NCBI GenBank assembly: GCA_028583605.1
Contig: CM053337.1
Coordinates: 28,840,397-28,904,396 of the forward strand
DNA: 64,000 bases
From: Dastarcus helophoroides
Taxonomy: Eukaryota; Arthropoda; Insecta; Coleoptera; Bothrideridae
Direction of reading: 5' to 3'
Shown one piece after another: positions 4,917 through 54,479 of this stretch. Within the stretch, counting starts at the first letter, position 1. Every line of letters starts with the position of its first letter. The notes under the pieces were generated by a model. That model worked only from the letters and a program-made list of their open reading frames with translations. It made no database searches and was not told where the DNA came from. A program made the translations under genes and the position numbers.

Positions 4917-5146
4917 TCTTCAAAGTTCAAAAACTGAAATACAAAACATGTCCCCCGAAACCTGAAACATTAAAAAACACAACAAAGGTTGTTCTAACGC
5001 GTTTCGACAGCTGAAGGTGATAGCTTGGCTGTCGAAACGCGTTAGAGCAAGCTTTGTTGTATTTTTTAATCTTTCTTGGTTTCAGGGGTCAAGTTTTGTA
5101 TTTCAATTTTTGTATATAACTAACGACCAGTCCGTTTCACCAAAAT
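4917..5146. mobile_element. Hammerhead-bearing foldback element, copy A
   Basis: Two inverted arms meet near 5010. The right arm reads outward as CGCGTTAGAGCAA, an A/T-rich stretch, CTTTCTTGGTTTCAGGGG, then GACCAGTCCGTTTCACCAAAAT. The left arm is its inverse but truncated. The same unit recurs at 6261, 11680, 16363, 31771, 38339, 49988 and 54352. At the arm junction the left stem I strand is lost. Confidence 0.8.
5011..5047 (+). ncRNA. Hammerhead-ribozyme-like motif, copy A right arm (core mutated)
   Basis: Reads CTGAAGG (5011-5017, canonical CTGANGA with the last A changed), T, stem GATAGC (5019-5024), loop TTG, stem GCTGTC (5028-5033), GAAAC (5034-5038), GC, GTT (5041-5043), AGAG. The change at the position of A9 and the missing upstream CTCT suggest an inactive copy. 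Confidence 0.5.
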
Positions 5147-6260
5147 TCAAAGTTCAACTTTAATCTCAAATTTTTTCTTCTAAAATTTTAAGTTTAAACT
5201 CAAAAAAGTAGGGTTCATATTTTGGAAATTAAATTTAAAATTTTTGATAGAGGCGTCTAGGTTTCAAGTTTTGAATCAAAATTTTAGAAAAAATGAAGTT
5301 TCGGGTTTAAACTCAAAATTTTAAGAAGAAACTAAACATTGCCAAAACTACAACTTATATGAAGATATATTTTTTTCATAAATTAAACTCTTTAGAATCT
5401 CCACCCAGAAACCTTAAACTTCAATATAATGTTTAAAAAAAATACGCATTTTTCAGTTTAAAAATTTTTGAGAATTTTGAGAAAAAAGTTCAAACGTCTA
5501 GGTAACTCAAAATTTATGGTATAGGAATCCTAATTAATATGATTTTTTTTTAAGTAAACAAATAAAATCCTAAAATTTACAAGAATTTTGTAGAAATTAC
5601 CGAGTTTCAAAATGTTAAGTTGAGACTCATAATTTTCATAAATTTTCGAAGAGTATTCGACATTTGCTTACAACTTAAAACCTAATAAAGAATTTAAATT
5701 TTCAAAATTCAAGTGGAAATTTTAATAAAAAATCTTTTAAGTAATTTTCTTAAAGAAATTTTTAATTTAGTTTCTTTCAGCGCATTTAAACTGGAAGGCA
5801 CTTTTGAATTCAGTTGCAAAATTTCAACTGTTTCTAAGAAATAATTTTCTCTTTAAAATTAAATTTCAAGTCATTATCAAATTCTAAACTTTTGTCTTAA
5901 AATCACCTTAAATTTGTAAAAATTATTCAAAATTTGTTTTATAAAAAAATGTAAAAATTATATCAAGCATTTTAAAAGTAAGAAATTTGGAAAAAGTCGA
6001 AAATTCTGGAAAGTCGAAATTTGAAGTCGATATTTTCAAAAATGTCAAGAATAAAAAATATTTCAAATTTTGGAAAAGCCGTTTTCAAAAAATTCAAGGA
6101 TTTGAAAACAATGGGAAGATTAAAAAAAGGCTTTAATTTTTAAAATAGTTAAAAAGTGTTTTAAAATTTCAAAAAAATTGAAACTATTAAAAAAATGTCG
6201 GGATAAATTAAAAAAAAAACAAAATTATCAGAAAGGTCGATTTTTTAAAATAATTTAACA

Positions 6261-6484
6261 TTGAAAAGTTAAAATACAAATTTTGTCCCCTGAAATCAAG
6301 AACGATTAAAAAACAGAACAAAGGCTGCTCTAACGCGCTTCGACAGCCAAGCTATCATCTTCAGGGAGAGAGTACCTCTCTTAGAGCAACCTTTGTTGTA
6401 TTTTTTAATGTTTCTTGGTTTCAGGGGATAAAATTTGTATTTAAATTTTTCAAGATAACCAAGGAACAGTCCGTTCCACCAAAA
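6261..6484. mobile_element. Hammerhead-bearing foldback element, copy B
   Basis: The left arm retains a complete minus-strand motif (6370-6327): CTGAAGA, stem GATAGC, GCTGTC, GAAGC instead of GAAAC, GTT, AGAG. The right arm has lost its ribozyme core, passing from ACCTCTC to TTAGAGCAACC, but keeps its outer part through CCACCAAAAT. Confidence 0.8.
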
Positions 6485-8860
6485 TTGAAAAGTTAAAATT
6501 CTGAAATTTTGTGTAGTTAAAATTTTGAAAAAAAGGCACCTTTTTAAAAGATTCAAATTTTGAACTGGAAATTTGTAAGAAAATGTTGAAATTTGAAAAA
6601 ATGACGAAATTTTAAAAAATCGATCTGTTCAAAAACTTCAAGATTTGTAGTCCAAATATTCAAAGAAAATTTCAAAAAATTACAAAATTTTTTCAAAAAC
6701 TCAAATAATCGAAATTTGCTTTTTGCAAGTTGATATTTTGAAGAATAGTCGAAACTTTCAAAAAAAGTTTAAATTTCGAATGAAGTCGAATTTTGGAAAA
6801 AAATGTAAAATTTTTAAAAATTGTCAATTTAAAAAAAAAGTCGAGTTTCGGAACAAATACCAGCTTTACAGCGATATTTCCAAAAATATAAGGAGATTTT
6901 CAAAAACGTTACCATTTTCAATAGCAGAACAAGGATCTTAACTTTTAAGTCGAAATTTAAAAAAAAAATCGCCATTTTCATAAAAGTAGAAATGTTTGGA
7001 AAAGTCCAAACTTTCAAGGGTCGAAATTTTCAAAAGCTCAATATGTTCAAAACTGGATAATGTAAAAGTCGAAATTTTCAAAGAAAAGTTGGAAAATTGG
7101 CGAAACCTTTTGAAAAACTTAAAATTTTGAATAATAATCGAGAATTAAAAAAAATTGAGTCGATATTCTAAAGGATAGCCGAAATTAAAAAAAAAAAGTT
7201 TTAATTTCAAAAGAAGTCAAATTTTGGTAAAAAAAGTAAAATTTTGAAAAAAAATCTATTTAAAAAAAACTCGTAGAAATTTTTGGAAAAGTTGAAACTG
7301 TCAAGAGGCGAAATTTACAAAATTTGAATTTGGACAATTTGAATAGTCGAAATTTTCAAATTTGAAAAATTGACTAAAATTTTTGAACTCAGAATTGTGA
7401 AAAATAATCAGAAATTTAAAAAATCGAAATTTGCGTTTTGCCAGATGAAATTTTGAATAGCTGAAATTTTCAACAATGTCTAAATTTCGAATGAAATCAA
7501 ATTTTGGTACAAAAATAAAATTTTGAAAATAATCAAGTTTTAAAAAAGTTAAATTTTTGGAAAAAGTTCAGTTTTAAAACGCTCGACATTTCCAAAAACT
7601 GTAAAAAATTCCAAAATATAAAGAATTTTCAAAAACTACAGATTTTTAAAACAGTTACAATTTTTAAGAGAAGAAATTTTGAAACTAGGATGAAAACTTT
7701 TTAGTTGAAATTTTCAGAAAAACAATCGCTATTTTCATAAAGGCAGAAATTTTTGGAAAAGACAAAATTTGAAGAGGCGAAATTTTCCATAAAATCTTAA
7801 CAATTTAAAAAATCGAAACTTTTAAAGAAAATTTGAAAAATTGACTAAATTTTTTGAAAAACTCAAAAGTTAGAAAAATAATCGAAAACTAAAGAAAAAT
7901 CGAAATGTGCTTTTTGTGAGTCCATATTTTGATGGATACCGAAACTTTTAAGATTAAATTTCAAAAAAAAGTCAGATTTTGATGAAAAAGAATTTTGAAA
8001 AATAGTCAACTTTAAAAAAGTCCCATTCTTGAAAAAAGTCTAATTTTAAAAAACTCGACCAAAAACTGTAAAATTTTTTCAAGAAAAATAAAGAATTTTC
8101 AAAATATGTGGACATTTTTAAGTCACAATTTTTAAGTCAAAATTAAAAAAAAAATCGTCATTTTCATAAAAGTAGAAATTTTTGGAAAAGTCGAAACTTT
8201 CAAGAGGCGAAATTTTCAAAAATTCAGTTTGTTCAAAACTCGACAATTTGACAAGTCGAAATTTTCGAATAAAATTTGAAAAATTGACAAAACCTTTTTG
8301 AAAACTTAAATTTTTGAAAAATATTGAAAAATTTAAACAAAATCGCGAGTCGATATTTTTAAGGTTAGCCGAAATTTTCAAAAAGGTTAAATTTCGAAAG
8401 AAGTCAAATTTTGGTAAAAAAGGAAAGCTTTGAAAAATAGTCAATTTCAAAAAAAAGAGTCGAATTTTTGGAAAAAGTCCAACTTTAAAAAGCTCGACAT
8501 TTCCAAACATCTTAAAATTTGTCCAAAAAATAAAGAATTTTAAAAAATAGAAGTTTTTTAAAGTTACATTTTCAAGAACAGAAATTTTGAAAAAGGGATG
8601 TAAATTTTCTAAGTCGAACCTTTAAAAAAATCGCCATTTTCATAAAAGTAGAAATTTTTGGAAAAGTCAAGTTTCAAGAGACAAAATTTTCAAAAATTCA
8701 ACCTGTTCAAAAACTCGCCAATTTGAAAGTTCGAAATTTTTAGAGAAAATTTAAAAAATTGATAAAATTTTTTAACATTTTGACTTTAAAATAAAAATTT
8801 CGGTTTTTAGAAATTTTAGCTTTGTTTCGAAATTCTGAATTTATATCGAATAATCAAAAT
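6485..8860 (-). repeat. AT-rich tract, GTCGAAA polarity, with tandem higher-order units
   Basis: Opposite polarity to the left-edge tract. Inside it a longer block recurs: a segment containing CGCCATTTTCATAAAAGTAG and GGAAAAGTC begins near 6969, 7724, 8153 and 8629, with a partial relative near 7276. Spacing is about 300-480 bp. Order is kept within units, for example a later AGTCGATATT or GAGTCGATATTT and then TTGGTAAAAAA. This is a decayed tandem array rather than random simple sequence. No gene is seen. Confidence 0.75.
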
Positions 8861-9625: not shown

Positions 9626-12600
9626 ATGAATATGACTGGTAAGCGATGCTCCCGATAAATTGGCAGATTTTATTAATCTGTGCATGATTAGAACGATTTT
9701 TTTATTGCAGATTTGTTTGCAAAGGTCACATGTACCTATTGCCAAGAAGAAATCAAGGGTGTTAGAATCCAATGTTGCGTATGCAGCGAGTTCGACATTT
9801 GCCTTCAGGTAGGTGATCATCATATGACATTTGGTGTTTCAACATGGCGGGTAATTTGAATTTTACCCTAGAATCGTGCTTCAGTTATTCAATTAGAATT
9901 TATGGTTTAAAAGGGCAAAGTCATTCAACAATAATTGTTGTTGAATTAGGTAACGGTCGTGGGAAGAATCTTTAGCTAATTATTTTTGAATTTTAACATG
10001 CTTGAAACGTATAATTCCTATTTTGTTTGCTTTAAAATCTTGGTGTATTAATGTTTTATTTTCAGTGTTTTCTGTGTGGCGCTGAAATAGGACCTCACAG
10101 AAATGACCATGCTTACAAGTTTGTGGTAAGTTTTTCTTTTATTTAATAGATAAATTTTTAATGTTTTGTATTTTTGGAACAGATAATCTCCCGAGTTATT
10201 TATTAGTGTTTGTTGTGGCTCAATTGAAATAGGTAGATATTTCAACAAAATTCTAGGCCTGAGCCAGTTTCAGAGAGTGAAATTGAAAATATTACCGACA
10301 TTTCAGAAATTCTCAAATTTCCATTTTTTTTTAAATTTTGCCAATAATACAAAAGTTTCGATTTTTATCTTGAAATTATGAAAATAATAAAAAAGGTACA
10401 TCCATATAATTTTAAGAAATAGTCTACAAAGCTCGAAATTTATTGAAAAAAGAAAATGATTAAAATTTTCCTCTTTACTTGTTTTCCTTCTTATAATATT
10501 CGTTTTTTTCTTAAAATTTCGACTATACTATTTCTCAGAATTTTGGTTTGATACTTTTCATTTTTACTTTAATTTCTTAGAATTCTTATTTAATTGAATA
10601 TCAACTTTTTTCTCAAAATTTCGTAGTTTTTTCTATAAATTATGGCTTTTTTCCAAATTTCGCGTTTTCCTCAAAATTCAGGGTTTTGTACAATAGTTTT
10701 TAATATCTTCTTAAAATTGACTTTTAAACTTCAAAAAATACTGACTTTGATATTCTATTTTTTTTAAATTGAAATCTTGCCTAAATCACGAATACTCGCT
10801 TTTTTCTCGTAATTTTAGCAGTTTTCTTATTAATTCCAGTTTTTCCTATTTATTTCGCTAAATGTCAAATTGTTTAAAAATGTAGAACTTTTCAAAACTC
10901 TACATTTAACAAAAATGTACATTTTCAAAAAAGCTCATTTTGTAAAAGACGAAATTCTCAAAAATTAAGATAGAATTTTTTAAAAAGTAGCAATTTTTAA
11001 AAAGGTAGAAATGTTTAAAAATGGTTGAAATTTTTAGTCGAGTTTTTCCAAAAGGGTCGAAATTTTGAAAATGAATTGAAAAATGTAAAATAAGTTAAAA
11101 TTTTGAGAGAAAGAGTCGACATTTTGGGAAAAAATGGATGTTTAGGGAAAGCGGAAATTTAAAAATGTCGAAATTTTAGAAAAATATGGAATTTTTCAAA
11201 AATGGATTTTCAAAAAAGTCTGAGCGACGAATTTTTCAAAAATAGAATTTTAGAAAAATATGGAATTTTTCAAAAATGGAATTTTTCAAAAATGGAATTT
11301 TTCAAAAATGGAATTTTAGAAAAATATCGAATTTTTCAATAATAACTAAAATGTTCTAAAAAGGTTGAATTATTCATGACTGATCGAAATATTTAAAGGG
11401 GTCAAAATCTTCAAAAATTAAAATTATGAAAGAAAATCAAAATAAAAAAAATTCAGAAAAACTCGAAATTTCAAAAAAAAATTGAAGTGTTTAAAGAATT
11501 GAAGTCTTGAGAAAAAAAAATATTTCGAGAGAAAAAATTGAAATTTTGCGAAAAGTGAAAGTTTGGGAAAAATGAAATTTAAAAATGTTAAAATTTTCTA
11601 AAATGTCGATATTTTCAAAAAGAGGAATTTTTAAAAAAATTCCGAATTTTTGAAAAAAGTAATATTTTCTAATAAAATTTTGGTGGAACGGACTTGTCCT
11701 TGGTTATCTTCAAAAAATGATATACAAATCTTGCCCTCTGAAGCCAAAAAAATTAAATACAGCAAAGGTTGCTCTAAAGCGTGTCGACAGCCAAGCTATC
11801 ATCTTCGGAGAGATACTAACTAGTTGGATAGAGATACTAACTAATTAGTATCTTAAGGAAAAGGATTTTCAAAAAATTTCGAGTTATTCATAAACTTTCA
11901 AAATATTTAAAAGGGAAAAATTTCCAAAAATTGAAATTTTGAAAAAGAGTAGAAAATTATAAAGCAAGTCAAAATTTCGAGAAAAAATCAAAATTTAAAA
12001 ATATCAGAATTTTCAAAAAAGTTTTTTAGAAAAGTCGACATTTTTAAAAAAGTCGATTTTATTTAAAAAAAAAGTTAAACTTCAAATTATTCATTAGCGG
12101 TCGAAATATTAAAAAGGGGGAATTTTTCAAAAATCGAAATTTGGAAAAAATGCAAAATTTCAAAAAAATTGAATAACTTCAAAAAAAGCCAAATTTTTGG
12201 AAAATTTGAAATGAATCGAAAATAATAAAATAGGTTGAAATTTTCAGAGAAAGAGTCGAACTTTTGGGAGGAAAAAAATGGAAATTTAAGGGAAGTGGAA
12301 ATTTAAAAATTTCAAAAAAGGAAATATTCAAAAAAATCGGAATTTTCAAAAAAGTCGACATTTAAAAAAATCGAAATTTTTAAGAAAGGTAAAAATTTCG
12401 GAAAAAAACATCGAAATATTCAAAAGCGATTATATTTTCAAAAATCGAAATTTTGAACAAAACACCTCATTAATAAGAATCGAAATTGCAAAAAAATTCG
12501 AGATTTTCAAAATTATTATTGAAATCTTCAGTCAAATTTTTGAAAAAATCGAAATTAGTAAGATTTGAAAGTTTCCAAATAATTCAAAAGGGGTCAAATA

Positions 12601-15600: not shown

Positions 15601-18600
15601 AATGAGCGACTGTCAATTTAATAGTTATCAAGCGTGATTGAATGAGAGAAAGTTTTATTGTCTTTTCCGTTCATTTCATCATTTGTTCATACCATCATGG
15701 TTTGGTTTGTGTGCAGGCTAGAGTTAAACGAAAAACTTATGTAAACAGAAACAGATTGTATCAGTTTGCATTTCACTTAGGGCAGCAGTGGCTCTGCAAT
15801 GTTAATCCAGGAGGACCAGTCAAAAAACGGGTAAGATTAGGTTTACGTTACATCACATTGTAGAATAGTTCAAACCTCATTATCGCGCCTTAGTTTCATC
15901 AAATTAGACATTGAGAGCATGTGATTTTTATAATGTAAATATCGTTTTATAACTCAGATGGCGTTATTTCATTCGTTATATTAACATTTTGTTTGGTATT
16001 GTAGAAGAAGCGAAGGCGACCAAAGTTTCACAGAAAGAAAATCCATGTTGCTGTGGGAAGGAGAGCCAGAGCACAACGGCTCCAACAATTGCAGCAACAA
16101 TTGGAGCCACTCGAACTTTGATAAATACTCAGAGTCATACATTAGGGTTTTACCGTTAGGATCATTACTTTCGCAGTACGAAGTAGCGGTAAGTTACTGG
16201 CGCCCCCTAAGATATTTCATGTTTTTAACATTTACTTGTGGAATCGTTTATAAATTAGAACTATTAACAAAATGAAATATACAATAAAATTAATGCGCTG
16301 CTGCGCGTGTAAAAGGGGTTAAGTCATAAATAGATAAATTTGGAAAAAACATCATTACTCAAAAATTGAAATACAGAACTTGAAACCAAGAAAAATTAAA
16401 AAACACAACAAAGGTTGCTCCTAACGCGTTTCGACAGCCAAGCTGTCATCTTCAGAGAGAAACTGTCAAAACGCAAACCTTTGTTGCCGTTATTAATCTT
16501 TCTTGGTTTCAGGGGACAAGTTCTGTATTTAGATTTTTGAAGATAACCAAGGACCAGTCCGTTCCATCAAAATCATTACTCAATTTGCACAGACTTAGAT
16601 TTTTAACTGACGAGCACAATTAGACAATTAGTCATATTCCAAATGACTTAGCTGCCATTAAACAACGACAGTAACTTCAAAATTATATACGAAAATGACT
16701 TGAACTTATTTTCAGGAAATTTGACTTGACCCCTTTTAGATGTGCAGCAACGAATAATTAATCATAGCCCGACCTAAATTACATTTTTGATCGAAAACTG
16801 ATGATTTCAGCGGAAACTAAGTACCCCAGCGAAATGGAAAAGCTGTATTTAGTGAATTTTGGATTTACATCCTTCTATTTTCATTTTCAAATTTTATTGT
16901 CTTGAAATTTCGTCTGTGTTTTCAAAATTTCGACGTTTCTCTCGAAATTTTTCAACATTTCTATCGTTTTTGTCGCAATTTCCATTTTTCTTTTCAAAGT
17001 TTTGATTTTAACTTTAAATAACTTTGAATTCATACTCAAAGTTTCTTGAGCAAGGTCAATAGTTTGTTTGAATGTAATGCTGAAAAATTCAACTTTAAAG
17101 TAAAATTTAAGTGAGAATTAAAAGTTTTAAATTATGAAAATAGAGTTAAAAAAACGCTTAAATTCGCTACATTTTGTTATTATTTACGTATATTTTTTTT
17201 CCAAAATTGTCAGTTTAAACTTGACATTTTATTTCAATACTAGCTTCGCTTGTGGTCGAAATTTGATCAGTATCAAATGCATATTTGAGTGTAAATTCTT
17301 AATTCTTTCTTTGACGATTTGAGGAAAAAAGTGAGAGAATGAAAATTTTGATTCTCGAAAATTTAGACTTTTATCGACCATTCTGACTTTTTTAAAAATT
17401 TCGATTTTTTTATTGAAAATGATTAGTTTTTCTTTAAAAAAAAGCGACTTTTGAAAATTTCAATTGAAAGAGATTCTTTGATAATTTCGAGTTTTTTTTT
17501 CAAATTAGGTACTTTTTAAATTTTGGATTGTTTGAAATTGTTGACTTCTTAATTTGATTTTTTTTTGAAAATTGACCTTTTGAGAATTTCGACTTTTTTC
17601 AAATAGTTGAATTTTTTGAAGATATCTTGACTTCTTAAATATTTCAACTTTTTAAATAACTCGACCCTTTAAAAATTCCTACTTTTTTTGAAGAATTCGA
17701 TTATTTTTTTTAAATTCCCATTTCTTCTTAAGTTCTGCATTTTTGAAGATATCGACTTACGAAATTTTAAAATTTCAACTTTTTATCAAATATCTAAAAT
17801 TTTTTAGAGAATATTGACCTTTTAGATATTTCAACTTTTTAAATAACTACTCTTTTTGAAAATTTCTATTTCTTGTTAATTGTTACATTTTTGAAGATAA
17901 CGGACTTATGAAAATTTTAAATTTTCCACTTTTATATTATTATAAATTTAAAATTTTTGATTTTTTCGAAATTTTCGCCTCTTTTAAATTTTGAATTGTT
18001 TTGAAAATTTCGCAATTCTTTTGGATTCTCGAATTCTCGGAAAATGTCGACTTTCAAAATATTGAAATTTTGGATTTTTTGTAAATCTTAACTCTTTTTT
18101 TTTTGGAAATTTATCTACATTTATGAAAATTATGAAAATATTGACTTAAAAAATATTGTTTTTTTTTAAATTTTAACTTTTTTCGAAAATTTTAAATATT
18201 TTTCGAAATGATTTTGAAAATTTTGCTTAATTATCAATTTTTCCAAAATTAAATATTTTCCAAAATTTCAGCCCTTTAAGAGTTTGGACCATATTTCAAA
18301 ATGTCTACATTTATCAAGTTTTCAACTTTCGGTCCTTTTTGGAAATTTCGATTTTTTTAATTTTTTTTAAATTTTAGTCTTTTCAAGAATTCGATTTTTT
18401 TTTAAATTTGACCCTCAAAAATCTCAAATATTCTAATTTTTGGAAATTGAAAATTAGCCATTTTTTTTAAATCTCGACATTTTTCAACTTTTGACCATTT
18501 TTGAACTTTTAGCCTATACATTTCAAAATTTCGCTTTTTTTAAATTTTGAATTGTTTTGAAAATGTTGTCATTTTGTCAGATTCTCGAATTTTTTGAAAA

Positions 18601-21600
18601 TATCGACTTTTCTTTGAAGAATTCGATATTTTTTTTAAACTCCCATTTCTTAATTTCTACATTTTTGAAGATATCGACTTACGAAATTTCAAAATTTCAA
18701 CTTTTTATCAAATAGCTAAAAAATTTTTAGAGAATATTGACCTTTTAGATATTTCAACTTTTTAAATAAATCTAAGGTTTTTGAAAATTTCTATTTCTTG
18801 TTAATTATTACATTTTTAAAGATATCGACTTACGAAAATTTTAACATTTTAAATTTTCCACTTTTATTTCAAACTATCCATTTTTTTTGAATATATCGAT
18901 TTTTTTATCTTGAAATTTTGATTTATAATCTGAAGATTTCGTTTATTTCAAAATTTCCCCTTTTTTGAAAATATTGATGTTTTCAAACGTTTGATTTTTT
19001 TCAAAATTTTGATATTTTTTCAAAATTTTGACTTTTGTCAAAACTTCGACCTATTCTCAAAAGTATTTTGTTGTGAATTTCGACTTTCTTTAAAATATGC
19101 TGTTTTTTCTTGAAACTTTTAACGTTTTTAACAAGGTTGACTTTTCGAAAATTTCGACTCTTAACTTTTTGACCTTTTCAAAGTTTTGATTATTTTGCTG
19201 AATTCTGCTTTTTTGAAAAGGTTAACTTTCAAAAATATTGACTTTTTTCAAAATTTTAACTTCTTTAGTAATTGTGATTTTCAAAGTTTTCACTTAAAAA
19301 TCGTTTTTTTTTTATTTTCACCTTATTTGAAAGTTTTAAGTGTTTTTGTAAAATTCTACTATTTTTTAGAAATTCCAATTTTCGAAAAAGACATTTCGAA
19401 GTTTTGATTCTTATTAAAAACTGCGACTTTTTAAAATATTTTCACTTAAAAATTTTAAGCTTTTTTCAAAATTCTTAGTTTTTGAAAATTCACCTTGTTT
19501 TTAAAGATTTATACTTATTTAAAATTTTTGATTTTTTTTCACATATATGGGCTTTTTTCAAGATTTCAATCTCTTCCCAAAATTTTGACCTTTTTTTTTA
19601 AATTCGATATTTTTTGAAAACTTTTTTAGGTTCGTTTGAATTCCAAAATTTCAACTTTTTCTCGAAATTTCGGCTTTATTTTGAAATTTTCACTTTTTTC
19701 GACATTTTGACTTTTAAACAATTCTAACTTGTTTAAAATTCTGGCTTTTTTGTTTAAAATTTGATTTTTTTTAAATTTTTTTACTTTTTTGTGATAATTT
19801 TTGTCTTTATCAAAATTTTTCTTTTTCGAAAATATCAACTTTTTTAAAAAATTTCTTTTCAAAATTTCAAATTTTTAACCTTATTTTTGAAAATTTTGGC
19901 ATTTTTTTTCGAAATTCCTATCTTGTTATTGAGAATGCATACCTTTTTTTTAAACTTTGATTAAAAAAAAAATCCATTCTTTTGGAAAGTTTGAATCTTT
20001 TGAAAATATCGACCTTTGAAAACAGTTGACTTACTTGAAATGATTGATTTTTTAAAACTCGATTTTTTTCAAAGGGGTCTAGAGAGAAAAGCATGGCGAA
20101 AGGGCCCCCATGTCCAAGGTCTGAAATATTATATGTACAGTTATTGTGGCTCCAAAGGAATACCACCTACAAGTCCTACAAGGTTTTGATCTGTCCTTGA
20201 GATATTCGAGAACGAAAGCTAGGTCGCAGTTGTGTTACAAAATTAATTTTCTCAAAAACTATAAAAGTTACAGAGATGGCAACAATTTCATGTTTTGAAG
20301 AATATGTACTGAATTTTGTTTAGATTTTTCATATAATATTAATGAGATAAATTAATAAAAAATATTGTAAATATCATTACTATATTTTAATAATATTCGA
20401 CAAGGTATATACTGATCAAAAAAATACTGAATATTACCGGATTTATTTACTTGTACTACACAAAAATACAACAAAATCAAAGAGGGGCTTTTTGTGTAAA
20501 ATGTCATTGAATACAAGTGTTCCAAGCTCATTTTGCCTTCGAATTACCAAAGAAAATACTTTGATTTAAATTATTGTAAAAAAAATATTTTTATATGAAA
20601 ATTTGCAATAAAAAATGTTTAAATTTTTTTTGAAAATGTTAAATATTTCGATTTTCGACTTTTTCAAACATTTTACTTTTTAAAATTTCGACTCTTTTTT
20701 AAAAGTTTAACTGTAAATTGCCCAATTTTCTTAAAATCGCTACATTTTTTCAAAATTTTTACTATTTCTGAACTTTTAGTCTACTTTCCATAATTTAGAT
20801 TTTTTTGTAAATTTTGAATTGTTCTGAAAATTTCTAATTAGTTTCAGATTTTCGAATTCTTTAAAAATATTTTTTTAAAATGATCATATTTTGGACCTTT
20901 TTTGAAAATCTTAATTTTTTCTTAGAAAATTGTCTTTGGCTTTAATATTTTTGATTTTTTAAAATTTTAATCATTTGAAAATGTCTTCAAATTTAGGATT
21001 TTTTTAAAGTATGGCTTATTTTCAATTATTTTCAAATTTTTGTTTTTTTCATAATGTCGACATTTTTCAGGCTTTCTACTTTCGGTTTTTTTTTGAAAAT
21101 TTTAACTTTTATTTTTTTTTAAACATTCGTCTTTTTTCAAATATTCGACTTTTTTTAAAACTCCGACTTCTAAAAATTTCAAATTTCATATTTTTTTTTA
21201 AATTGGACGCATTTTTTTTTAAATTTCGACATTTTTTCCAAATTTTGTACTACTTTCGGATGTTTTTTTATTTGAAAATTTTAACTTTTATTTTTTTTAA
21301 ATATTCGTCTTTTTCAAATATTCGACTTTTTTTAAAACTTTCGACTTTCAAAAAATTTCAAATTTTAAATTGGTCGCATTTTTTTTAATTTCGACATTTT
21401 TTCCAAATTTTCTACTAATTTTGAACTTTTTAATTTCACGAATTGTTTGAAAATGTCAACTTTTCAAAGTATTAAAATTTTGGATTTGTTTTCGTAATTT
21501 AACTGTTTGTGAAAATGTTTAAAATTTTAAATTTTAAAAATTTCGACTTTTTCGAGAATTTTAACAAAAACTTTAAGTTTTTGATTGTTTTCAAAATTTT

Positions 21601-31290: not shown

Positions 31291-31770
31291 TGTGCAATTG
31301 AAACTCAGAATTTTGCGAAATAAGTCAACATCTTTCCACATTTTGTAAGTAAAAAAAAATTAACCCCGAAAATGTCAGGACTGAATAGCGGTCGGGCTCC
31401 CGCGATCAAATTATCTACATGTAGGTGAAGTGTTGCGATTAATTCGAAAATTCAAGGAAAAAGTAAAAAATGCAAGTGTTAACTCAGAATTTCAGAAAAA
31501 AAGATCGAAATTTGGAGAAAAAAGACATTTCATTTTTAAACACTAAATTTCGGAAAAAATATCAACATTTCTGGAAAGTCAATATTCTAAATTTTAAGAC
31601 AAAAACTAAGAAGAAAAAAATGTAACACATTAAACTTTGAGATAAAGGAATTAAAAACGATGCGCAATAAAGAAGAAAATATCTGTAATATACAGGTGGA
31701 TCATAAGTAATGGTGCACAGAGCAAGAGTGGATTTTTTCTATAAAAATAATGGGAATTAACTATTTTTTT

Positions 31771-31945
31771 TTGGTGGAAAGCACTGGTCCTTGGTTATCT
31801 TCAAAAATTGAAATACAAAACTTGTCCCCTGAAACTAAGAAAGATTAGAAAACACAACAAAGGTAGCTTTAACGCGTTTCGACAGCCAAGCTACCATCTT
31901 CAGAGAGATATCTCTCAGGGAAGAAGTTTTGTATTTCAATTTGTG
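31771..31945. mobile_element. Hammerhead-bearing foldback element, copy E
   Basis: The left arm is complete from TTTGGTGGAAAGCACTGGTC through GTCCCCTGAAAC. The centre is GAGAGATATCTCTC; only a short part of the right arm (AGTTTTGTATTTCAATTTGT) follows. Confidence 0.8.
31867..31908 (-). ncRNA. Hammerhead-ribozyme-like motif, copy E
   Basis: Minus strand: TCTCT, CTGAAGA, T, stem GGTAGC, loop TTG, stem GCTGTC (two G/U wobbles), GAAAC, GC, GTT, AAAG. The core is intact by the same criteria as copy D. The stem I strand AGAG is changed to AAAG. Confidence 0.55.
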
Positions 31946-32099
31946 ATTTAGCTTTTACCTTATTCCAGAAGTTGATATTAACCGAAGTACAAGATGTCAA
32001 AGTTGAAAAATAAAATCCGAATTTTTCGTATAACTATTGAACAAATTTTAATATAGGCATGAAATTTAGCACAAGAGGGTTTTTACGGAATTTGTAAAA

Positions 32100-35148: not shown

Positions 35149-38100
35149 TCAAATTAGAGGAGGTGTATGACTTGGAGAGGAATAATTTGAACTGGATGAA
35201 GATGAACTGGTACTACTGCAGGAAGAACACGAAGATGAATGTGAAGAACTGGAACTATCACTTGAGTACCGTTTCTTCTCATATTTATGCTTCAATTCTG
35301 ATACCAATTTCTTTGTCCTCCTTTTTATAACATTGTTTGCGGAATCCCTGGCATAATTTGACGATGGAAAATTCATTTCCGGAGTTGAGTATCCTGAGAT
35401 TGATGAAGTATTTTTAACAGAGCAATTTGATCTATAAGACTCTGGACTCCTGTTAAAATCTTGGTAGGAGGTAGAAGGAGCGTTCAATATATCTCTCTGG
35501 TAATTCGACCTATTGGACAAAGACGACGAAGATGACTTCTTCGATTTTGATCTCCTGTAATTATCCTTGGTTTTCCTCTGGAACTCCTCTGATAATCGCC
35601 TGGAGGATACACTCCTAGAATCATCAGAAGCTCTAACGCCGTTCTCCAAGGTGAAGTGCAGCGTGGATGGTGGCCGCGATGACATCATCATGGAGCTACT
35701 CGGACTCTGATTCCTGGGCTCGAAAACCGCTTGCGAAGTCGATGGATACGGCGACACGCTTCTGAAGTTGATAGGGCTCAAATCTGAGGAACTCGAATAG
35801 TGATGGAGGGAGGTACACCTGGATACGTTCGGCGCTGAATGGCAGGAGCTCGCGACGGCCACTCCTCCCGATTGCAATGGCGGGGAAGGCGTATAGGTGT
35901 CTCTGTTATTGTTCGATGCATCGACTAGCAATCCTGACGTTCCAGGTCGCACATGAGCTGGAATTGTGTCCTCTCCCACACTAATCTCAGAGTCAGATTT
36001 TTCGGATTTATTTTCTAATTTCGTGATTCGGATCCTGATGCGGTTGCGTAGTTCCTCCAGAGGAGTATCGGAATCATCCTCGTTGCCACTTCGTCTTCTT
36101 TCTCGCTTTGGTCGCTTACTTCTTCGAGTTGATCTTCCTCTAGACCTCCTCTTTCTTGCATTTTGAGCGTACTCATCAGAATCCGAACATAAAGAAGTGC
36201 TACTAGATCTGGAGCTGGAATGCGTGCTGGGACTCATCGGAATCGGCATGGGCACTTCCGACGTAACGATGACATCATCGTCGGAATCGCTCGTCAATTC
36301 GATGATTGGAGGGTTGGAGTTGTTTGTTTCATTGACGATTACCACATCGCTGTCGTTGTCCTCGACGTCAAAGACATCTATCAGCGGCGTGGGGGAAGTA
36401 GGTCTTGTGGTGTATATCACGTGACGGTCATAACCGATGATGTCGAACGGAGACCGCATAAAATTGTAAAATTCGTGTATGAAATGTTCAGTGCGGTCGC
36501 CCAAATGTGGTCTGACTAAATCTGCAAATGATCGACTGCATACGTGATGTCTGAATAGAGCTTCCAATATATTTTCCACTAAGGGCATTATTTGTGGAGT
36601 GTTATTGCGAAGTAAGGCATTTAATTCCCTGTTCAACCAAGGGACGAGGCGAGTTCTAGCCGCCGGATTGTCCCTAAAATAAAATATATGTTAACATTGG
36701 TTTATGACATAAAAGTTTTTGCTAGTTCATAGATCTAGACATCAGGCTGGCCGAGAGAAATTTCTGGCGGCTGGTGACAGTCATGAGGCGAGGCCTCCGA
36801 CATTCTTTATGTACTTGATAAACATTGAAACTCGTGAATCTCTTGATTCACGAGTTTCAATGTTTATAAAGTTCAATTACCACTTCTACTAATAACTACG
36901 AAACATTTTTTTTAATTTTCTCCAAAACTCTAGACTAATAACAACAAATGAAAGGCAAAAAAATCCCACACACGTTCCATATTTCTAATATCTTCTTCCG
37001 CCAGGGCCCCTATGAGCAGTAATACAAGTGAACCTTGTAAACCAGAATATTCGGTTGGAGTTTTTAAAATATCTAGAGTTCGAGGTCAAAATAAAAATTT
37101 TAACAAAAAGACTATGCCTATAATTTCTAGAACAAAAATCCACGTTTAATTGGGAAATTCGGCATGTAGAGAAAAAGTTTCTGTTATAAAAATGGAACAA
37201 AATCGGACAATCTTTTAACAATAGATCACAAAATTTTAAGAAGAAATTGGAATAAATTCAAATTTAAATTAGGAATGTAACCGTAACCGAAACTATCGTA
37301 TATCCGTATTCATAGCCGAAACTGTTTCGAAACTGCTAAATGTTTCGGATAATGTCGGATGTTGTTGAAATAATTTTATTAATTTCAGTCGACGATTGTT
37401 TTTTTTTGGTCGATTAAAATTATGAGTTAAACTAGGTGGTATGACCTGACCTTACTCACTATTGCCACGGCCACTAACTACTTTCTTTAAAGTGTTAAAT
37501 GCATCGTTTTTTTTTAATTTCGACATTTTTCCACAATTTTTTTTTGAAAATTTCACGTTTTTAATTACTTGCATTTTTCATTTTTACTTTTTTCAAAATT
37601 TGTCTTTTTGAAAATTACAAAATTTTTTAAGAATTTCAGATTTCTTTAAAAATTTGGCTATAAAAATTTTTGATAATGTCTAGTTTTTTTTCCAAAATTT
37701 GATTTTATTTAAAAATGTAGACTTTTTGCACAAATTTGATTTCTTATCAACATTTGGGCTCTAAACATTTCAGCTTTTTTCAACATTATGAAATTTTTAT
37801 TGTTTTTGAAAATTTTGATTTTTTTATGTTTCAATTGTTTCCGAAAATGTCTATTTTATTGAAAATTTCGATTTTTTTTTAGATATTTCGACGTTTTTTT
37901 GGCAAAAATTCTACTTTTAAAAAATTCTTAATATTTTGAAAATGTAGATTTTCAAATCTAAACTTTCCTTTAAAATTTTTGAGTTTTTCAAAATTTCAGC
38001 TTTTTCTCCAAATTAACATTTTTTTAAAGATAATAATTTTTTTAAATCAAAATTTTGACTAATTTTTAAATTTTTAAAAATTTTAATTGGGTAATTACAT

Positions 38101-41100
38101 TTTAAAATATCGGTTTTAAATGTAAATTCTCTTTTTTTTTAATTGAGATTCTTTTGGAAATTTTTAGTTGTAATTTCTTGATTTTTATATTTTCTAATAT
38201 TTTTAAAACATTTTGAATTATTCTTTAGAAATTTTGACCTTTCAAAGCTTAAATTGTTGTCGAAAATTTAGCTTTTTTTGTTAAAAATATTGGCTTCTCT
38301 AAAAATTTTGACTTTTTGCAAAATTTCTATTTTTTTTTTTTGGTGAAACGGATTGGTCCTTGGTTATCTTCAAAAACTGAAATACAAATCTTGTCCCCTG
38401 AAGAGAGATCTCTCTGAAGATGATAGCTTGGATGTCGAAACGCGTTAGTGCAACCTTCGTTGTGTTTTTTAATCTTTCTTGGTTTCAGGGGACAAGATTT
38501 GTATTTCAATTTCTAATTTTTTAAAATTCATACTTTTTAGAAACTGTATATTTTTCAAATCTGGATTTTCTTTCAATTTTTTGTTTTTTTTTCAAAAATT
38601 CGCCCTTTTCTCAAAATTTACTTTTTGTGAAAATTATACATTTTTTAAAATCAAAATTTTGACTAATTTTTGATTGTTTCAAAATTTCACCCTTTTCCCA
38701 AAAATTACAATTTTTCAAGTCAAAATTTTGATTAATTTTTTAATAAAATAAAGACCTTGTTTGAAAATTTTCTTTTTTAATACGAATTTTTTAAGTGTCG
38801 ATTTTTTCGAAATTTTTAGCTGTAATTTAGTGATTCTTATATTTTCTAATTTTTTCGGAAATTTCGATTTTTTTTATGCTTCAATTGTTTCCGAGGTTTA
38901 GATTTCAATGTTTAGATTTTTTTCGAAAATTTAGCTTTTCTTGTTACAAATATCGACTTTTCTGAAAATTTAGACCTTTTAGTAAAATTTCTATCTATAA
39001 ATCCTTACTTTTTGGAAAATGTAGATTTTCAAATCTGGACTTTCCTTAAAATTTTTGGTTTTTTTTTTTAATTTCAGCTTCTCAAAATTTACATTATAAT
39101 TATTTTTAAATCAAAATTTTGACTAATTTTTTGAATTTCTAATTAGTTAATTATTATTTTCAAATATCAACTTTATTTGAAACTTTTTTTTTAATCGCTT
39201 TAATTGACTTTTTTTAAGTGTCGATTTTTTTGGACCTTTTTTGCTGTAATTTGGTGATTTTTATATTTTCATTTTGTTTTAAATCTCGACTATCTAAAAT
39301 TTTGGAATTTTTTTTCAAAATTTTAATTTTTGAAAATTTGCGATTTAAATATTTTAATTATCCAAAACTATTCAAAATTTCGATTTTTTCAAATCTTTGA
39401 CTTTTTTGATAATTTTGGCTTTTCTTGAATATTTGGACTTCTCAAAATTTGGCTATTTTTGAAATTTTAGTACTTCTCAAAATTTCAACCAACTTTAAAT
39501 TTTTTTAAAAATATTTAATATTTAAATATCTCTTTAAATCTCTTTAAATATGGCGACTTTTTCAAAATTTTGCTTTTTTTTAGTTTTTTTAAATAGTAGT
39601 AGTAGTAGTAGTAGAAACCAAATGCAAATAATAGGTACCTAATTAATACTTTAATTCAACGTTATAAGTAATTTTTATAGATATCGTACATGTATGTTGG
39701 AGGAACAGGGAACTGCTATCCCTTTAAGAAGTTTTATGGTTGCGTTTTAATTCTCGACGTGTATTCATATACAGTCTGTCAAGTAAGAGCGTGGTCGTGT
39801 TAATTTATAAAAAAAATATTTTATGAAACTTTCATATTTTTATATACATTGTACACATTACAAACAATGATGCAATTCGGTCAATAATGTGTCCAGTCAC
39901 CACCGGCGTCGATAATTGCCTGGCATCTCCGAGGCATGCTTTCTACTAATTTGACGGCGTATTCTAGTGGCAAGGATCTCCAGATCCGATGAATTTCGTA
40001 AGACAACTGCTTCCAAGTGTATGTGCGTCTTCCACGAAGCTTCTGTTTAATATATGCCCACACATTTTCAATAGGGTTTGCATCGGGCGACTGCGATGGC
40101 CAATCCAATGTAACGATGCCAGATTAAGTCTTCCACTGAGTACAGAGCTTGCTGCGGTGTTTAGGATCGTTGTCCTCCTGCAGAAACCAATCTTCATTTT
40201 TTGTGATGAACCATCGTTTGGCAGATGGCAGTAAAGCCTTTTTGTAGATTTTTATCATTTTCTCGGCATTTAGGTTGTCAGTAAAGAGGTACAAAATGCC
40301 GAATCCCTGCTTTGAGAAGCGCCCCCAAAGATGCACCTTTATTCCATGTTTTACGGTCCGCTGAATAAGCCTATTGGTGGAAGTTGACCAGGCTCGCGTG
40401 AGGACAGAACGTGCCCATATAGAACATTCATCAGTAAAAATGACATTTTCAAAATCTCTATCAATATTCTCATGCGCCCAAGCGAGTCGCTTTGTCACAT
40501 GTTTTTCAGTCAACAGAGGCTTCTTCATTGTGTTGCGCCATTTCAGATCATGAGTACGAAGAAGGGTTCGGATAGTTTCGTAGGATATATCTAAACCTTT
40601 TGCCATTAATTTTGCTTGTCCTTGCCGCAGTGTTAAAGAAGGATTCCGCGAAAACAGATTCACTATTCTTTTTTATCTTTTTTGTTCACTTTTCCTATCG
40701 AACCACGTTCTGGTAAATCATCGACATTTTTAGCCACTTTATATCGCTGTATCCACTTCTGTACAAATGCCTTCGACTTTCTCATATATTTATCAGCCGC
40801 TGATTGCGACATTTTGGGACCTTTCGGGTGGATGCAAAGGAACACAGCCTCGTAGCGCGACGCGTACTTACCACTCATGGCGTTTAACGTGATTCTCTTT
40901 CAAAAGATCAACGACAACTGAACCTTTGTTGACAATGCATCAACGACAAAGCTTCCCTGTATCGGCTCGCGAAGGAATTAGAGCAAAATCTTTCATTAAC
41001 TGTCGGTAAAGTCGACCACTCTCTTACTTGACAGACAGTAGCTTCGAGAGTGGCCGCACTGGATATTCCTATAATGCTAACCTGCTTCCAGTTGGTACCT

Positions 41101-46392: not shown

Positions 46393-46565
46393 TTACACTA
46401 GACATTTTGTTCCGTACATTTCTCTCCGAGATAAGTGATAACTGTTCTGAGGGAAGCTATCCGAGACTTATTTATATGGCTGAGGTTCTCGGATAGCTTC
46501 AATTAGTTAGTTGACGATATATTTTATGTCATAGAGAAATGTACGGAATAAAGTCTCTAGTGTAA
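46393..46565. mobile_element. Foldback MITE upstream of topors
   Basis: Outer inverted repeats TTACACTAG and CTAGTGTAA, extended by TTCCGTACATTTCTCT and its inverse. A second perfect inner pair, GAAGCTATCCGAGA and TCTCGGATAGCTTC, sits around a 22-bp centre. The whole element can fold back on itself. No target duplication is evident and it is non-coding. Confidence 0.8.
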
Positions 46566-49350: not shown

Positions 49351-49987
49351 TCTAAATATACTTTTATAATGAATGTATTTTCTACATCATCGTAAAAACA
49401 AACAAAAATACATAAATAAAAAACAAAGCAGAAAATAAATTTGTATCGGATCTTTCTAATTAGGAATAAATAAATAAATTAAAATATAAATAATAGTGTT
49501 TAAAATCTAAGAAAAAACTTTCAAAATTAAATTAAATTTAAATTTGGACATAATGGAGGCGCTATTTTCTTTAAACTTTGCGTTGCCTGTAGATTATTGC
49601 CTAATTTACATTTTTGAATGTTTTGTCACAACATTTTAATCTTTGTATCACAGTTGATATTTTTGATATAGGAGATATGACGCCAATTCATCATTATTAT
49701 TCAATTTTTCTTTTATTAGAAATGTTTTAAAATTTCACCAACAAGACGATTAATCAGAAATCGATCTTTCAGCACCCAATTTTATCGGGAATGGATTCCT
49801 TCGCCCACGATTCGAATCGATCCAAAAATCGATTATTTTAAAAAGGAATCGACATCCCTAATTCTCCTGTAATAGACATTCTAAAGCTAGGTGGCAGTGC
49901 CATACCAGCATTGAGTTTGTTTTCACATTCCTCAGAGCCTTAAGGGCTGCCTGGCTGCCCGTCTTTATTTGGATATATTTTCTTTCT
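49350..49987. other. AT-rich intergenic DNA with a hAT-like terminal fragment
   Basis: Mostly unremarkable. At about 49755-49861 ATCGAT-type words lead to CGACATCCCTA, the inverse of TAGGGATG, consistent with a hAT-like right end (see 50837-51492). No gene is seen. Confidence 0.45.
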
Positions 49988-50118
49988 CTTGAAGATGATA
50001 GCTCGGCTATCGAAACGCGTTACAGCAACCTTTGTGTTTTTAATCTTTCTTGGATTCAGGGGACAAGATTTGCATTTTAATTTTTGAAGATAACCAAGGA
50101 CCAGTCCGTTCCTCCAAA
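49988..50118 (+). mobile_element. Hammerhead-bearing foldback element, copy G (right arm only)
   Basis: One arm from TTCTCTTGAAGATGATAG to GACCAGTCCGTTCCTCCAAA. The motif (49986-50026) has TTGAAGA for CTGAAGA, but its stem II is fully Watson-Crick (GATAGC, loop TCG, GCTATC), followed by GAAAC, GC, GTT. Confidence 0.75.
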
Positions 50119-50138
50119 ATTAAAAAAAATATGTATAA

Positions 50139-50370: not shown

Positions 50371-50399
50371 AGAAGATTCATTTTATTAAATAAAATTAT

Positions 50400-51492: not shown

Positions 51493-51526
51493 CCTTCATT
51501 GACAAATAATTTGCAGTTGAAGAGTA

Positions 51527-51910
51527 GGGATGCAAACGATAGTGCGATGTTTTGAAAACATTGATGTATCGTTCGTAAACATCGATGGTAAAACATGAAA
51601 AAGTATCGATACATCGCTTAGCTTATAAACGATGTTTGAAAAATCGATGTATCGCTTTGCGACCGAATTCTGTTGGATAGAATACATATTTATTGGACAA
51701 ATGACCATGCAATTTTGTAATTACTCACAAGATGGCAGTATATTTAACAAATTGATGCTTTGTTTATCACTCAGCTCAGGTATACAAACTTTAGAATAGG
51801 GATGCCAACATTTTTAAAACATCGATACAGTGTTCAATTGATATATCGAAAAAGATATATCGATATGTTTCGATACATCGGTAAATTTGTTCGATATTCG
51901 ATGTATCATA
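51527..51910. mobile_element. Two further TAGGGATG-type hAT-like ends
   Basis: TAGGGATGCAAACGATAG at 51526 and TAGGGATGCCAAC at 51796 each lead into clusters of CGATGTATCG and TATCGATA words. Neither has a visible matching right end, so they are truncated or related to each other as direct copies. Confidence 0.5.
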
Positions 51911-52395
51911 TAAATACAATATATGTAATACTTCTATATGGCGTGTTGTGTATAATCGGCACTGCAAAATGCTTTGTCAAAAAGGCGAGATGAAAGTATA
52001 TAAGTCCAAAGAAGGTTTCACCCCTTTACCACATCGGCAATTAAATAAATAAATACGCGATACGTATTTCGCCAGCAGAACTGGCATTTTCAAGCGCACT
52101 AATCAAAAAAGATTAGCAAAAGATGCATCGACGTCATCTGCATTGAGATTCAAATCGATACTGCATTCATTTGTTTATAGCGGAACAGATGACAAGATGG
52201 GCGGGAACAATAATAAATGAATGATAACAATGACGACTGTCAAGAAGAGGGATATTTGAAGTAAACTTTGGGATTGTTTAATATATTCTGTCCTCGAAAA
52301 AGACAAACATATATATCCATCGCGCCTTTTTGACACAAACAAAGGGACAAAACACGCCATATAGAAGTGTTACATATATGATAAATACAATGCCA
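51905..52395. mobile_element. Second foldback element with hammerhead-like centre
   Basis: Inverted arms of about 100 bp: left with ACTTCTATATGGCGTGTTG and TGTCAAAAAGGCGAGATG; right with the inverses CACGCCATATAGAAGTG and CGCGCCTTTTTGACA. Between them, on the minus strand (52093-52067), come TTGAAAAT, stem GCCAG, loop TTCTG, stem CTGGC and GAAAT, then ACGTAT. This is the same order as in the other family. The core has A where the catalytic G8 should be. Confidence 0.6.
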
Positions 52396-52434
52396 TACAC
52401 CAGGACTTCTTAACCAGCGAGGCGAGCCTCTCAT

Positions 52435-54300
52435 AATTTCGTTTTTTTCAAAATTCGTACTTTTTAAAACAAATCTTAACTTATTATACATTTTGACTTT
52501 TTCAAAATTCGACATTTAATAAAAAAGCTTCTGCTTTTATTTAAAACTTCGATTTTATTTTGTTAAACAAAATTGCAATTATTTATAAAAATTTCAGTTT
52601 TTAAGCTTTAGATTTTTTTTGAAAATGTCGAGATTTTTGAAAGGTTGACATTTTTTACAATTTTATTTCAGAATGTGGATTTCTTTTTCCAAAATTTGAA
52701 CTTTTTTAAGATTTTTGACTTTCTCAAATTTCGATGTTGTGTTTTACTATTTTAAAATGTCGACTGCAATTTTAGAAAGGTTCGATGTTTTTAAAAATTT
52801 AGACTTTTTTTGAAAATTTTGAAATTTCATAAAACTTAAAAATTTTTCGAAAATTTCGATTATTATTTTTAAATCTCAACTTTCTTGATAATTTCGATAT
52901 TTCTTTCAAATTTTCTATTGTTTTTTTCCATTCCCGATTTTTTCAAAGTTTCGAATTTCTTTAGAAATCCCGATTTTTCAAAATTCCATTTTTTAAATAA
53001 ACTTTAAAAATTGTCGATTTGTTTGGCAAATTTCGATATATTCAATCTTTTTCTACTACTTTTTTTAAAAACCTTCATTGTTTTTGAAAATTTTAAATGT
53101 TTACATTAAAATTTCAAAATTTTTACTGATTTTCAAATTTTGATTTTTTTTAAATGCCTTTTACAAATTTCGACCTTTTTTTAAAATTCATCTATTTTTC
53201 CAAATTTTGACTTTTTCGAATTAATTTCGAATATTTTTGTAAATTCTTCCATTTATTCAATTATTCAGTTTTTTTGAAAAAATCTAAACTTTGAAAAGCC
53301 AATATTTTCAGCAGAAAGTAAAAATTTTGAAAAAGTTAATTTTGAAAAAGTTAAATTTTAAATATAGTCGAACACATTTTAAGAAAACAACTAAAATTAA
53401 AAAAAAGTGGAAATTTTGAGTTGCCGAAATTAAAACATTTAAAATTTTCAAAAATAGTCGGATTTTTCAAAAAAAAAACTAAATTTTAAAAAGGGTCGAA
53501 TCAAAAAAGCGAATTAAAAAAGTAAAATTTCAAATAGTCGAAATTTTGCAGAAGAATTGAAAATACAATTTTTAAAAAAGTATATGTTCAAAAAACTAAA
53601 AATTTCAAAACGTAAAAATTTTCAAAAGATCAAAATTTTCAAGAAAGATGAATTTTTGAAAACGTTCTAAACTTAAAAAAATCGAATTCTTAAAAAAAGT
53701 CGGAACTTTAAACAAAAGTCGAAATTTGAAAAGGACAAAATATTTTAGAAATGTGCAAATCAAAAAACGAAATAATTTAAAAGGGGTAAAAATCTTCGAA
53801 GTCAGAATTTTGAGAAAAAGGTCCAAAAAAGGTCAACATTTTTAAAAAATGAAAAGTTTTAAAAAACTCAAAATTTTCAAAAAACAGCAAAAGTAAAAAA
53901 TCCAAATTTTGAAGAAAGTCGAAAATTTCAAAAAAATCGATTATTTTACGAGTCACAACTTTAAAAAAACCGCTATATTTAGAAAATAATTTTGAGAATA
54001 AGGCTAAATTCTGAAAAAAATTCGAAATTTTCAATAGCCGAAAATTAGTTCTGTAAAAATCAAAATAAAAAAAAGTGAATATTGTAGGTTAGATTTTTTT
54101 AAATAATTTGAATTATTGAAAAAAGTGGATCATTTAAAAAAACTTAAATTTTTCAAAAAGTCAATATATTCAAAAAATTTTAAAAATTGTAAAAAAGGCG
54201 ATATTCGAAAAAACTTAAATTTTCAAAAAATGCTAAATTCTTTAAAAAGTTGAGATTTTTAAAAGTGTTAACTTGAGAACAAATAGTAATGAAAAAGTTT
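52435..54300. repeat. AT-rich tract with polarity switch near 53275
   Basis: TTTCGAC polarity from 52435 to about 53270, then GTCGAAA polarity to 54300. Nothing coding. Confidence 0.75.
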
Positions 54301-54351
54301 AAAGTAAATAGAATTCCTCAAAACATATTTTTTTTATTCTGAAATAAAATA

Positions 54352-54474
54352 ATCTTTGAAAATTGAAATACAAATTTTGCCCCTGAAACCAAGAAAAATT
54401 AAAAATCACAACAATGGTTGGCCTAACGCATTTCGATAGTCAAGCTATCATCTTCAAAGAGATATCCACCAAAA
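54352..54474. mobile_element. Hammerhead-bearing foldback element, copy H
   Basis: The left arm from TTTGAAAATTGAAATAC through the minus-strand motif (54463-54421: TTGAAGA, GATAGC, TTG, ACTATC, GAAAT, GC, GTT), then straight to the right outer end CCACCAAAAT. Core positions are mutated. Confidence 0.7.
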
Positions 54475-54479
54475 TCATT

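Follow-up and report, generated by a model that had tools for sequence, protein, structure and literature searches.

Eight short foldback insertions in the genome of Dastarcus helophoroides as probable terminal-repeat remnants of a Penelope-like element

What are the eight related foldback copies (A to H) that lie scattered over a stretch of 64,000 nucleotides in the genome of the beetle Dastarcus helophoroides (contig CM053337.1, positions 28,840,397 to 28,904,396; hereafter the window), and how did their arms come to contain the ordered words of a hammerhead ribozyme? We consider it likely that the copies are insertions of the terminal repeat (pLTR) of a Penelope-like element (PLE), without an open reading frame (ORF) and mostly dead on arrival, in which two pLTR pieces stand head to head, and that the hammerhead-like motif was inherited from the parent. 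The likeness to PLEs is one of anatomy, not of sequence homology, and the copies are a new example of a known element type, not a new kind.

The copies, their one-sided tail and their target repeats

Similarity between the copies is far above chance (self-BLAST E values down to ~1e-46). Two inverted arms joined head to head are present in six of them, F and H being one-armed. We aligned 13 arms to an arm consensus. Positions are numbered from the A of the motif's ATG (+1), copies are oriented with a 32-nt piece, AGATAACCAAGGACCAGTCCGTTCCACCAAAA (the tail), rightmost, and each copy is given the strand that places the tail 3'-most. In the consensus, the words CTCT CTGAAGA T GATAGC TTG GCTGTC GAAA C GC GTT AGAG follow each other in this order; letters such as C3 or A9 denote positions of the hammerhead core.

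4926-5145, plus strand: copy A; antisense left arm 4926-5011; right arm 5011-5145, with the tail rightmost and with the motif, in which the 5' strand of stem I is missing and A9 is changed to G
4919-4930: left target repeat of copy A, TTCAAAGTTCAA; right partner 5146-5157
6261-6484, plus strand: copy B; left arm 6261-6369 bearing the motif (minus strand), right arm 6381-6484
6260-6273: left target repeat of copy B, ATTGAAAAGTTAAA; right partner 6484-6497
11678-11815, minus strand: copy H; right arm alone, tail present; U4 and A14 of the motif changed
16359-16572, plus strand: copy C; left arm 16359-16460 with an intact core motif (minus strand)
16351-16362: left target repeat of copy C, ATCATTACTCAA; right partner 16572-16583
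31769-31946, minus strand: copy D; right arm 31769-31910 with tail and intact core motif, left arm only 31915-31946
38338-38512, minus strand: copy E; left arm 38408-38512 with an intact core motif (plus strand), right arm 38338-38402 with tail
49985-50119, plus strand: copy F; right arm alone, tail present; motif with C3 changed to U
54352-54474, plus strand: copy G; left arm 54352-54464 and the final 10 nt of the tail; motif with C3 changed to U
56280-56311, minus strand: arm scrap of 32 nt (about +65 to +96), matching at 84%, E 9e-5

The outer ends of the copies are not alike. The tail (+98 to +129) is found at a single end in all eight copies, its retention ranging from 30 of 32 matching nucleotides in A to the last 10 nt in G, and on none of the six left ends; the left end of G may include its first 4 nt. 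Left arms stop at +98 in A and B, at +97 in C and D, at +93 in E and at +101 in G, and the inverted repeat common to both arms reaches only to about +97. The right end lies at +129 in 8/8 copies, a consensus end that was chosen by hand and checked by the flanks past it, which are mutually unlike. One exception is the TCATTAC that directly follows both C (16573-16579) and G (54475-54481); in C it resembles a target repeat, yet the same TCATTAC adjoins G.

The inner ends vary. In every copy one arm is without the motif, wholly or partly: right arms are truncated in B (from +26), C (from +33, with a damaged piece before), E (from +65) and G (from +120, a second arm of only 10 nt), left arms in A (from +12) and D (from +66), and the left arm is absent in F and H. 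The inner junctions are different in each of the six two-armed copies. The left arm of D and the right arm of E have a nearly identical internal loss, with CTCTC or CTCTCT joined near CAGGGG, and these two copies keep a palindromic centre (GAGAGATATCTCTC in D, AGAGAGATCTCTCT in E). Cells commonly delete the central part of long palindromes; skipping of the reverse transcriptase over the folded motif is another possibility. Beside copy H, 5' of its motif, 11816-11860 holds two near-repeats of AGTTAGTATCTCT, perhaps an upstream pLTR piece or a local duplication.

Three copies are flanked by exact repeats at their outer ends, of 12 nt in A, 14 nt in B and 12 nt in C. Repeats of at least 12 nt had a frequency of 0.0018 among 20,000 random place pairs from the same window, a null that used a 45-nt left stretch, with right anchors off by up to 6 nt in some copies, against the 53 nt used for the observed repeats. 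In A and C, the repeat's final TCAA doubles as the first four bases of the left arm, which leaves a strict repeat of about 7-8 nt, and the repeat of B overlaps the outer end of the left arm as assigned by BLAST. The TCAA overlap may reflect microhomology that primed the left complementary DNA (cDNA). Since A and B each have target repeats of their own, they are separate insertions.

Inverted arms, short length, the lack of an ORF and AT-rich insertion sites would also suit a DNA transposon of the foldback or MITE (miniature inverted-repeat transposable element) type, whose arms would be terminal inverted repeats moved by a transposase and whose hammerhead words would be a chance likeness in a palindrome-rich arm. 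The asymmetry of the ends speaks against this, with the tail one-sided in 8/8 copies and the other arm stopping between +93 and +101 in 6/6, as do the single arms of F and H and a target-repeat length that varies from about 7-8 nt (A and C, excluding TCAA) up to 14 nt (B). We regard such a transposon as unlikely.

Parallels with Penelope-like elements and the origin of the second arm

The PLE parentage, like the dual initiation or self-priming and any cleavage discussed below, is what we infer from the DNA of these copies. The link to PLEs and their minimal type I hammerheads is supported by the one-sided tail, the head-to-head arms, the palindromic centre of D and E, the target repeats in 3/8 copies and the stem III sequence ACGCGT. 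For published elements we follow the relevant parts of the papers cited. PLE insertions with adjacent inverted pLTRs have been described that have target repeats of 9 and 10 bp, or sometimes none, and optionally a 31-bp tail on one of the inverted pLTRs; most often they are arranged head to head, and palindromes at the inverted junctions were read as a sign of self-priming (PMC3846280). Like the Pen2a_Av-type PLEs of Adineta vaga in that account, the copies described here combine head-to-head inverted repeats with a palindromic junction, and they share with the PLEs of the same paper a tail on one side only (32 nt here, 31 bp in the published case), target repeats of comparable length and a repeat that ends within the start of the ORF. 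Unlike those PLEs, none of the eight copies has a reverse transcriptase or endonuclease gene; the repeat without tail is about 110 nt, as against 193 and 218 bp in two of the published families, and the presumed ORF part comes to about 32 codons (43 with the tail), as against 12 and 22 (PMC3846280).

A second comparison is with the Poseidon element PAc of Anolis carolinensis, whose enzyme cuts and extends both target strands (PMC11167929). Its reverse transcription starts internally, at an AC-rich stem loop 111-118 bp into the ORF, and its tail is the stretch between two start sites of reverse transcription; the base of hammerhead stem II, past C3 and G8, is where its ORF begins, and cleavage takes place 26 bp into the ORF (PMC11167929). 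The beetle family agrees with this plan in kind: the ATG coincides with A9-U-G, the predicted cut follows +27, the copies end at +97 and +129, and the +129 end is AC-rich (CCACCAAAA). The shared features would thus be a hammerhead at the junction of pLTR and ORF, a start codon at the base of stem II, a cut some 26-27 nt into the ORF, an AC-rich start of reverse transcription near the ORF start and a tail between two such starts. PAc is a full element, whereas the start sites proposed here are deduced from the copy ends.

The first-pass annotation had reported eight copies and a scrap with two inverted arms, had placed one motif on each strand in opposite directions, and had suggested that this foldback form may be undescribed. 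The eight copies were recovered, and a further scrap lies outside the range given (4917..54474), but F and H are one-armed and the tail breaks the symmetry. The opposed motifs did not survive, the second arm being truncated or absent in every copy, nor did the novelty, as PLEs have already been described whose inverted pLTRs bear a tail on one side (PMC3846280). The connection with PLEs that the annotation had pointed to is supported by the tail, the head-to-head arms, the centre and the target repeats.

Together, these parallels suggest a model for the formation of the copies. The RNA template would begin slightly 5' of the hammerhead (about -12 relative to the A9-U-G ATG) and extend into the start of the PLE ORF, and reverse transcription would begin at one of two internal sites, at about +97 for the tail-less end or at +129 for the tail end with its AC-rich CCACCAAAA. 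Either one cDNA would be made on each target strand, or the second arm would arise by self-priming at the short palindrome in the centre. Two cDNAs that meet at the 5' side of the hammerhead would yield a foldback with a one-sided tail and a target repeat outside. The motif would be the PLE's own minimal type I hammerhead with the self-complementary stem III ACGCGU; its cutting would require a dimer, and perhaps also the PLE protein, and any cleavage would leave RNA 5' ends at AGAGCAACC. Once in a foldback, the motif would oppose its complement, and the decay of the copies shows no visible constraint.

Both the one-sidedness of the tail and the nearly fixed end at +97 follow if synthesis was initiated on the two target strands, and we lean slightly towards such dual initiation over self-priming or copying of the foldback as a unit. 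Under the latter two, the arms of one copy would be sisters. Column 95 does agree between the arms in all five two-armed copies aligned, and a C in column 97 occurs only in both arms of C; elsewhere the two arms of a copy differ, as at column 72 in A, B and C. Distances between the arms of a copy (0.13-0.25) are not below those to the nearest arm of another copy (0.06-0.26). Trees were built from 11 of the 13 arms, the short left arm of D and right arm of E being left out; the arms of a copy as sisters received IQ-TREE support of 37 in A, 36 in B and 62 in C, FastTree groups none, and this grouping was rejected.

As within-copy distances are no smaller, two readings lose ground. The first is a PLE-dependent foldback family copied as a unit, a miniature PLE parasite with two inverted pLTR pieces and a tail, in which the loss of one arm's core would leave exactly one hammerhead free to fold; we give it a minor chance. 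If true, such a family would preserve in nature a trace of PLEs initiating on the two target strands. The second is a self-standing, non-autonomous foldback retrozyme that spreads as hammerhead-processed, possibly circular RNA with PLE enzymes acting in trans. It would account for the variants shared by the arms of a copy (columns 95 and 97) and for the right arm of B, which starts at +26, no more than 2 nt from the predicted cleavage site (+27). However, those columns were picked post hoc and others disagree, the inner junctions differ in all six two-armed copies, and a foldback transcript would pair the motif with its own complement. Metazoan retrozymes, which like these copies are small, non-coding and equipped with a type I hammerhead, are moreover tandem repeats with RNAs of about 170-400 nt (PMC7229834); here, the arms are inverted, a single arm keeps the motif and no tandem occurs in the window. 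We think a foldback retrozyme very unlikely.

How PLEs integrate is poorly understood, and the outer ends of these short copies appear to mark two internal starts of reverse transcription (+97 and +129). With the TCAA-overlapping target repeats of A and C, they would record cleanly, in genomic DNA, an initiation on both target strands that has been demonstrated in vitro for one PLE, PAc (PMC11167929). Should the host genome prove rich in such copies, counts of them could resolve where reverse transcription starts, what part microhomology plays and where the inverted arm comes from. The ribozyme aspect is of lesser weight, as elements of the parent type are known to have it and it is seemingly decaying here.

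The state of the hammerhead-like motif and the case against Penelope-like parentage

The consensus fits a hammerhead descriptor with 0 deviations, solely when one extra nucleotide is allowed. All 12 counted letters of the invariant core (CUGANGA / GAAA / UH, A15.1-U16.1) are present in the consensus and in C, D and E only (3/8 copies); the core is damaged at A9 in A, A15.1 in B, C3 in F and G, and U4 and A14 in H. Even the three intact cores do not sit in intact surroundings throughout, as one additional G interrupts the 3' strand of stem I in C, whose right arm is damaged near the cleavage site, and one pair each of stem II and stem I is broken in E. A strict descriptor, which required a 4-bp stem I, an intact core and paired stems but tolerated the extra nucleotide, had 0 matches in the window and one match in 2 of 150 dinucleotide shuffles. 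A relaxed one, with up to three deviations, found C and D at one deviation, B, E and G at two and H at three; A and F were unmatched, and three unrelated places matched. Sixty shuffles of the window gave 5, 9 and 98 matches at one, two and three deviations. The motif on its own is therefore suggestive but inconclusive, and the DNA transposon considered above can draw on these rates of one-deviation (5 in 60 shuffles) and strict (2/150) matches.

Thus, the words that had been said to recur in order do so in the consensus and in one arm per copy, but no copy has the full motif. The earlier assignment to the minimal type I class holds for the core of the consensus, C, D and E, and fails for the damaged A, B, F, G and H and for stem II, which does not follow A9 directly; of the copies that had been proposed for a cleavage assay (D, E and F), D and E have an intact core, whereas F is without C3. 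The proposed descriptor with one nucleotide after A9 fits the consensus and finds no strict match in the window, the proposed search with Rfam hammerhead models yielded no hammerhead at E<=10, and the extra U that had been flagged as a departure from the hammerhead consensus is just that, since the only match of the arm consensus uses it.

A number of observations weigh against PLE parentage, and many of them concern this motif. The U between A9 and the first G-C pair of stem II is unexplained, and for this reason we call the motif hammerhead-like. The PAc description permits, but does not show, an extra U (PMC11167929). Natural hammerheads show a U-U mismatch at the base of stem II (PMC3088659; PMC7229834), from which a one-sided insertion differs. 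Neither a foldback hammerhead family nor a PLE hammerhead that has an additional nucleotide turned up in a literature search, primary descriptions of PLE hammerheads being outside its reach. Rfam gave ten weak matches in the whole window at E<=10, none of them a hammerhead, at a sensitivity to minimal PLE hammerheads that is unassessed, and no hammerhead in 71 bases of copy E (one of 8 copies). Over the eight motif arms to about +97, with the column of C's extra G set aside, variable cells number 6/96 in the core, 43/583 in the rest and 16/156 in the stems; the core is no less variable than the rest and shows no visible constraint. No base pair changed on both sides, and 374 of 500 column shuffles pair as well; a U-G pair of stem II has become U-A in two copies and C-G in one. 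Controls with slid partners pair at 20-40% versus 89.9% observed, a drop that is expected because the structure was derived from these same sequences.

Predicted folds are also unfavourable. The consensus monomer favours a slipped stem I (-9.8 vs -6.5 kcal/mol), in a whole single arm stem I has a probability of 0.0 and stem II one of 0.96-0.97, and for two strands the program, which cannot represent a double hammerhead, predicts an extended duplex. Stem III, ACGCGU, is self-complementary, with a predicted duplex energy of -7.5 kcal/mol. A self-complementary stem III is the situation in which hammerheads act as dimers. PLE hammerheads are of the minimal type I and may cut as dimers (PMC7761336; PMC6155905; PMC6466107), and the minimal stem III and expected dimer action are what the motif shares with the type I forms of PLEs and Terminons (PMC7761336; PMC6155905); it differs from these in the extra U after A9, in damage in 8/8 copies and in the lack of tandem motifs. 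Double hammerheads in eukaryotes additionally need tandem motifs (PMC6466107). With no intact copy, no covariation, no constraint on the core, a competing predicted fold and the extra U, the idea that the copies are working ribozymes is not supported. In PAc, cleavage by the hammerhead depended on the presence of protein, and in vitro insertion did not require the hammerhead (PMC11167929), so that a weak motif is no objection to PLE parentage.

The remaining counter-evidence concerns genes, arrangement and ends. A regular-expression search of the window for GIY-YIG had no match, and three YxDD matches were judged unlike a reverse transcriptase. Pfam, run on 7 of the 39 listed ORFs (at least 90 aa), found no PLE gene; it gave two RVT_1 fragments that we read as probably non-LTR (long terminal repeat). 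No protein had three 5-residue words in common with the 43-codon frame, 13% of shuffles keep this frame open, and the reverse strand has one open frame as well; with no relatives at the sensitivity of the search, we rated the frame as weak evidence for a PLE ORF and dropped it. Direct tandem or partial-tandem pLTRs are absent from the window, and we therefore call the copies PLE-derived, not PLEs. A target repeat is absent at D, F, G and H, and that of E is only 7 nt and of low complexity.

Finally, the tail ends of D (31760-31772) and E (38326-38341) continue, in the orientation of the element, as runs of 9 and 12 A's, each followed by TAG, and such a run is absent at the other six copies. 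A poly-A-type element would show these too, which slightly raises the possibility that the copies are fragments of another non-LTR retrotransposon or a short interspersed nuclear element with a 5' inversion by twin priming. A fixed 3' end, variable inner ends, target repeats, the A runs and the reverse transcriptase fragments at 59474-59926 and 61083-61412 would all agree with that origin. Twin priming inverts a segment copied from a separate part of the RNA farther upstream; here the inverted arm repeats the same stretch without the tail, and the remaining 6/8 copies have at most AAAA at the tail end. Of all the explanations considered, we hold this one to be the least probable.

Among the Rfam matches, mir-551 at 6284-6430 lies inside copy B, where it pairs the two arms, and was discarded. 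Viral contigs had no match to the exact 26-nt motif stretch. The shorter CTTSRNTTCAGGGGACAAG was found at two loci there, which the arm matched at a few short places with constant offset and nowhere at length; CTGAAGATG..CGAAACGCGT was found at three, dropped as no good stem II formed. Both candidates were rejected. The combination CTGATGAAG..CGAAACGCGT, which we take to be a form in vertebrate PLEs, had no match in the viral contigs.

Other features of the window

The window is AT-rich (23-38% G+C in 4-kb steps). Its other features are the following.

1565-3124, minus strand: LRR1-like ORF, with the best named relatives in beetles (61% Anoplophora, 60% Asbolus)
17500-23400 and other stretches: long tracts of diverged AAAATTTCGACTTTTT-like repeats, often 18-19 bases apart
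35149-36690, minus strand: serine-rich ORF, with the following palindrome upstream
36820-36865: near-perfect palindrome of about 46 bp (AAACATTGAAACTCGTGAATC, a short loop and the complement), unrelated to the foldback family
40124-40672, minus strand: Tc3-type transposase fragment (Pfam)
46393-46565: MITE-like short element with 42-nt inverted ends, 86% complementary, and a second inverted pair inside
59474-59926, plus strand: reverse transcriptase fragment
61083-61412, minus strand: reverse transcriptase fragment, just below the Pfam cut-off

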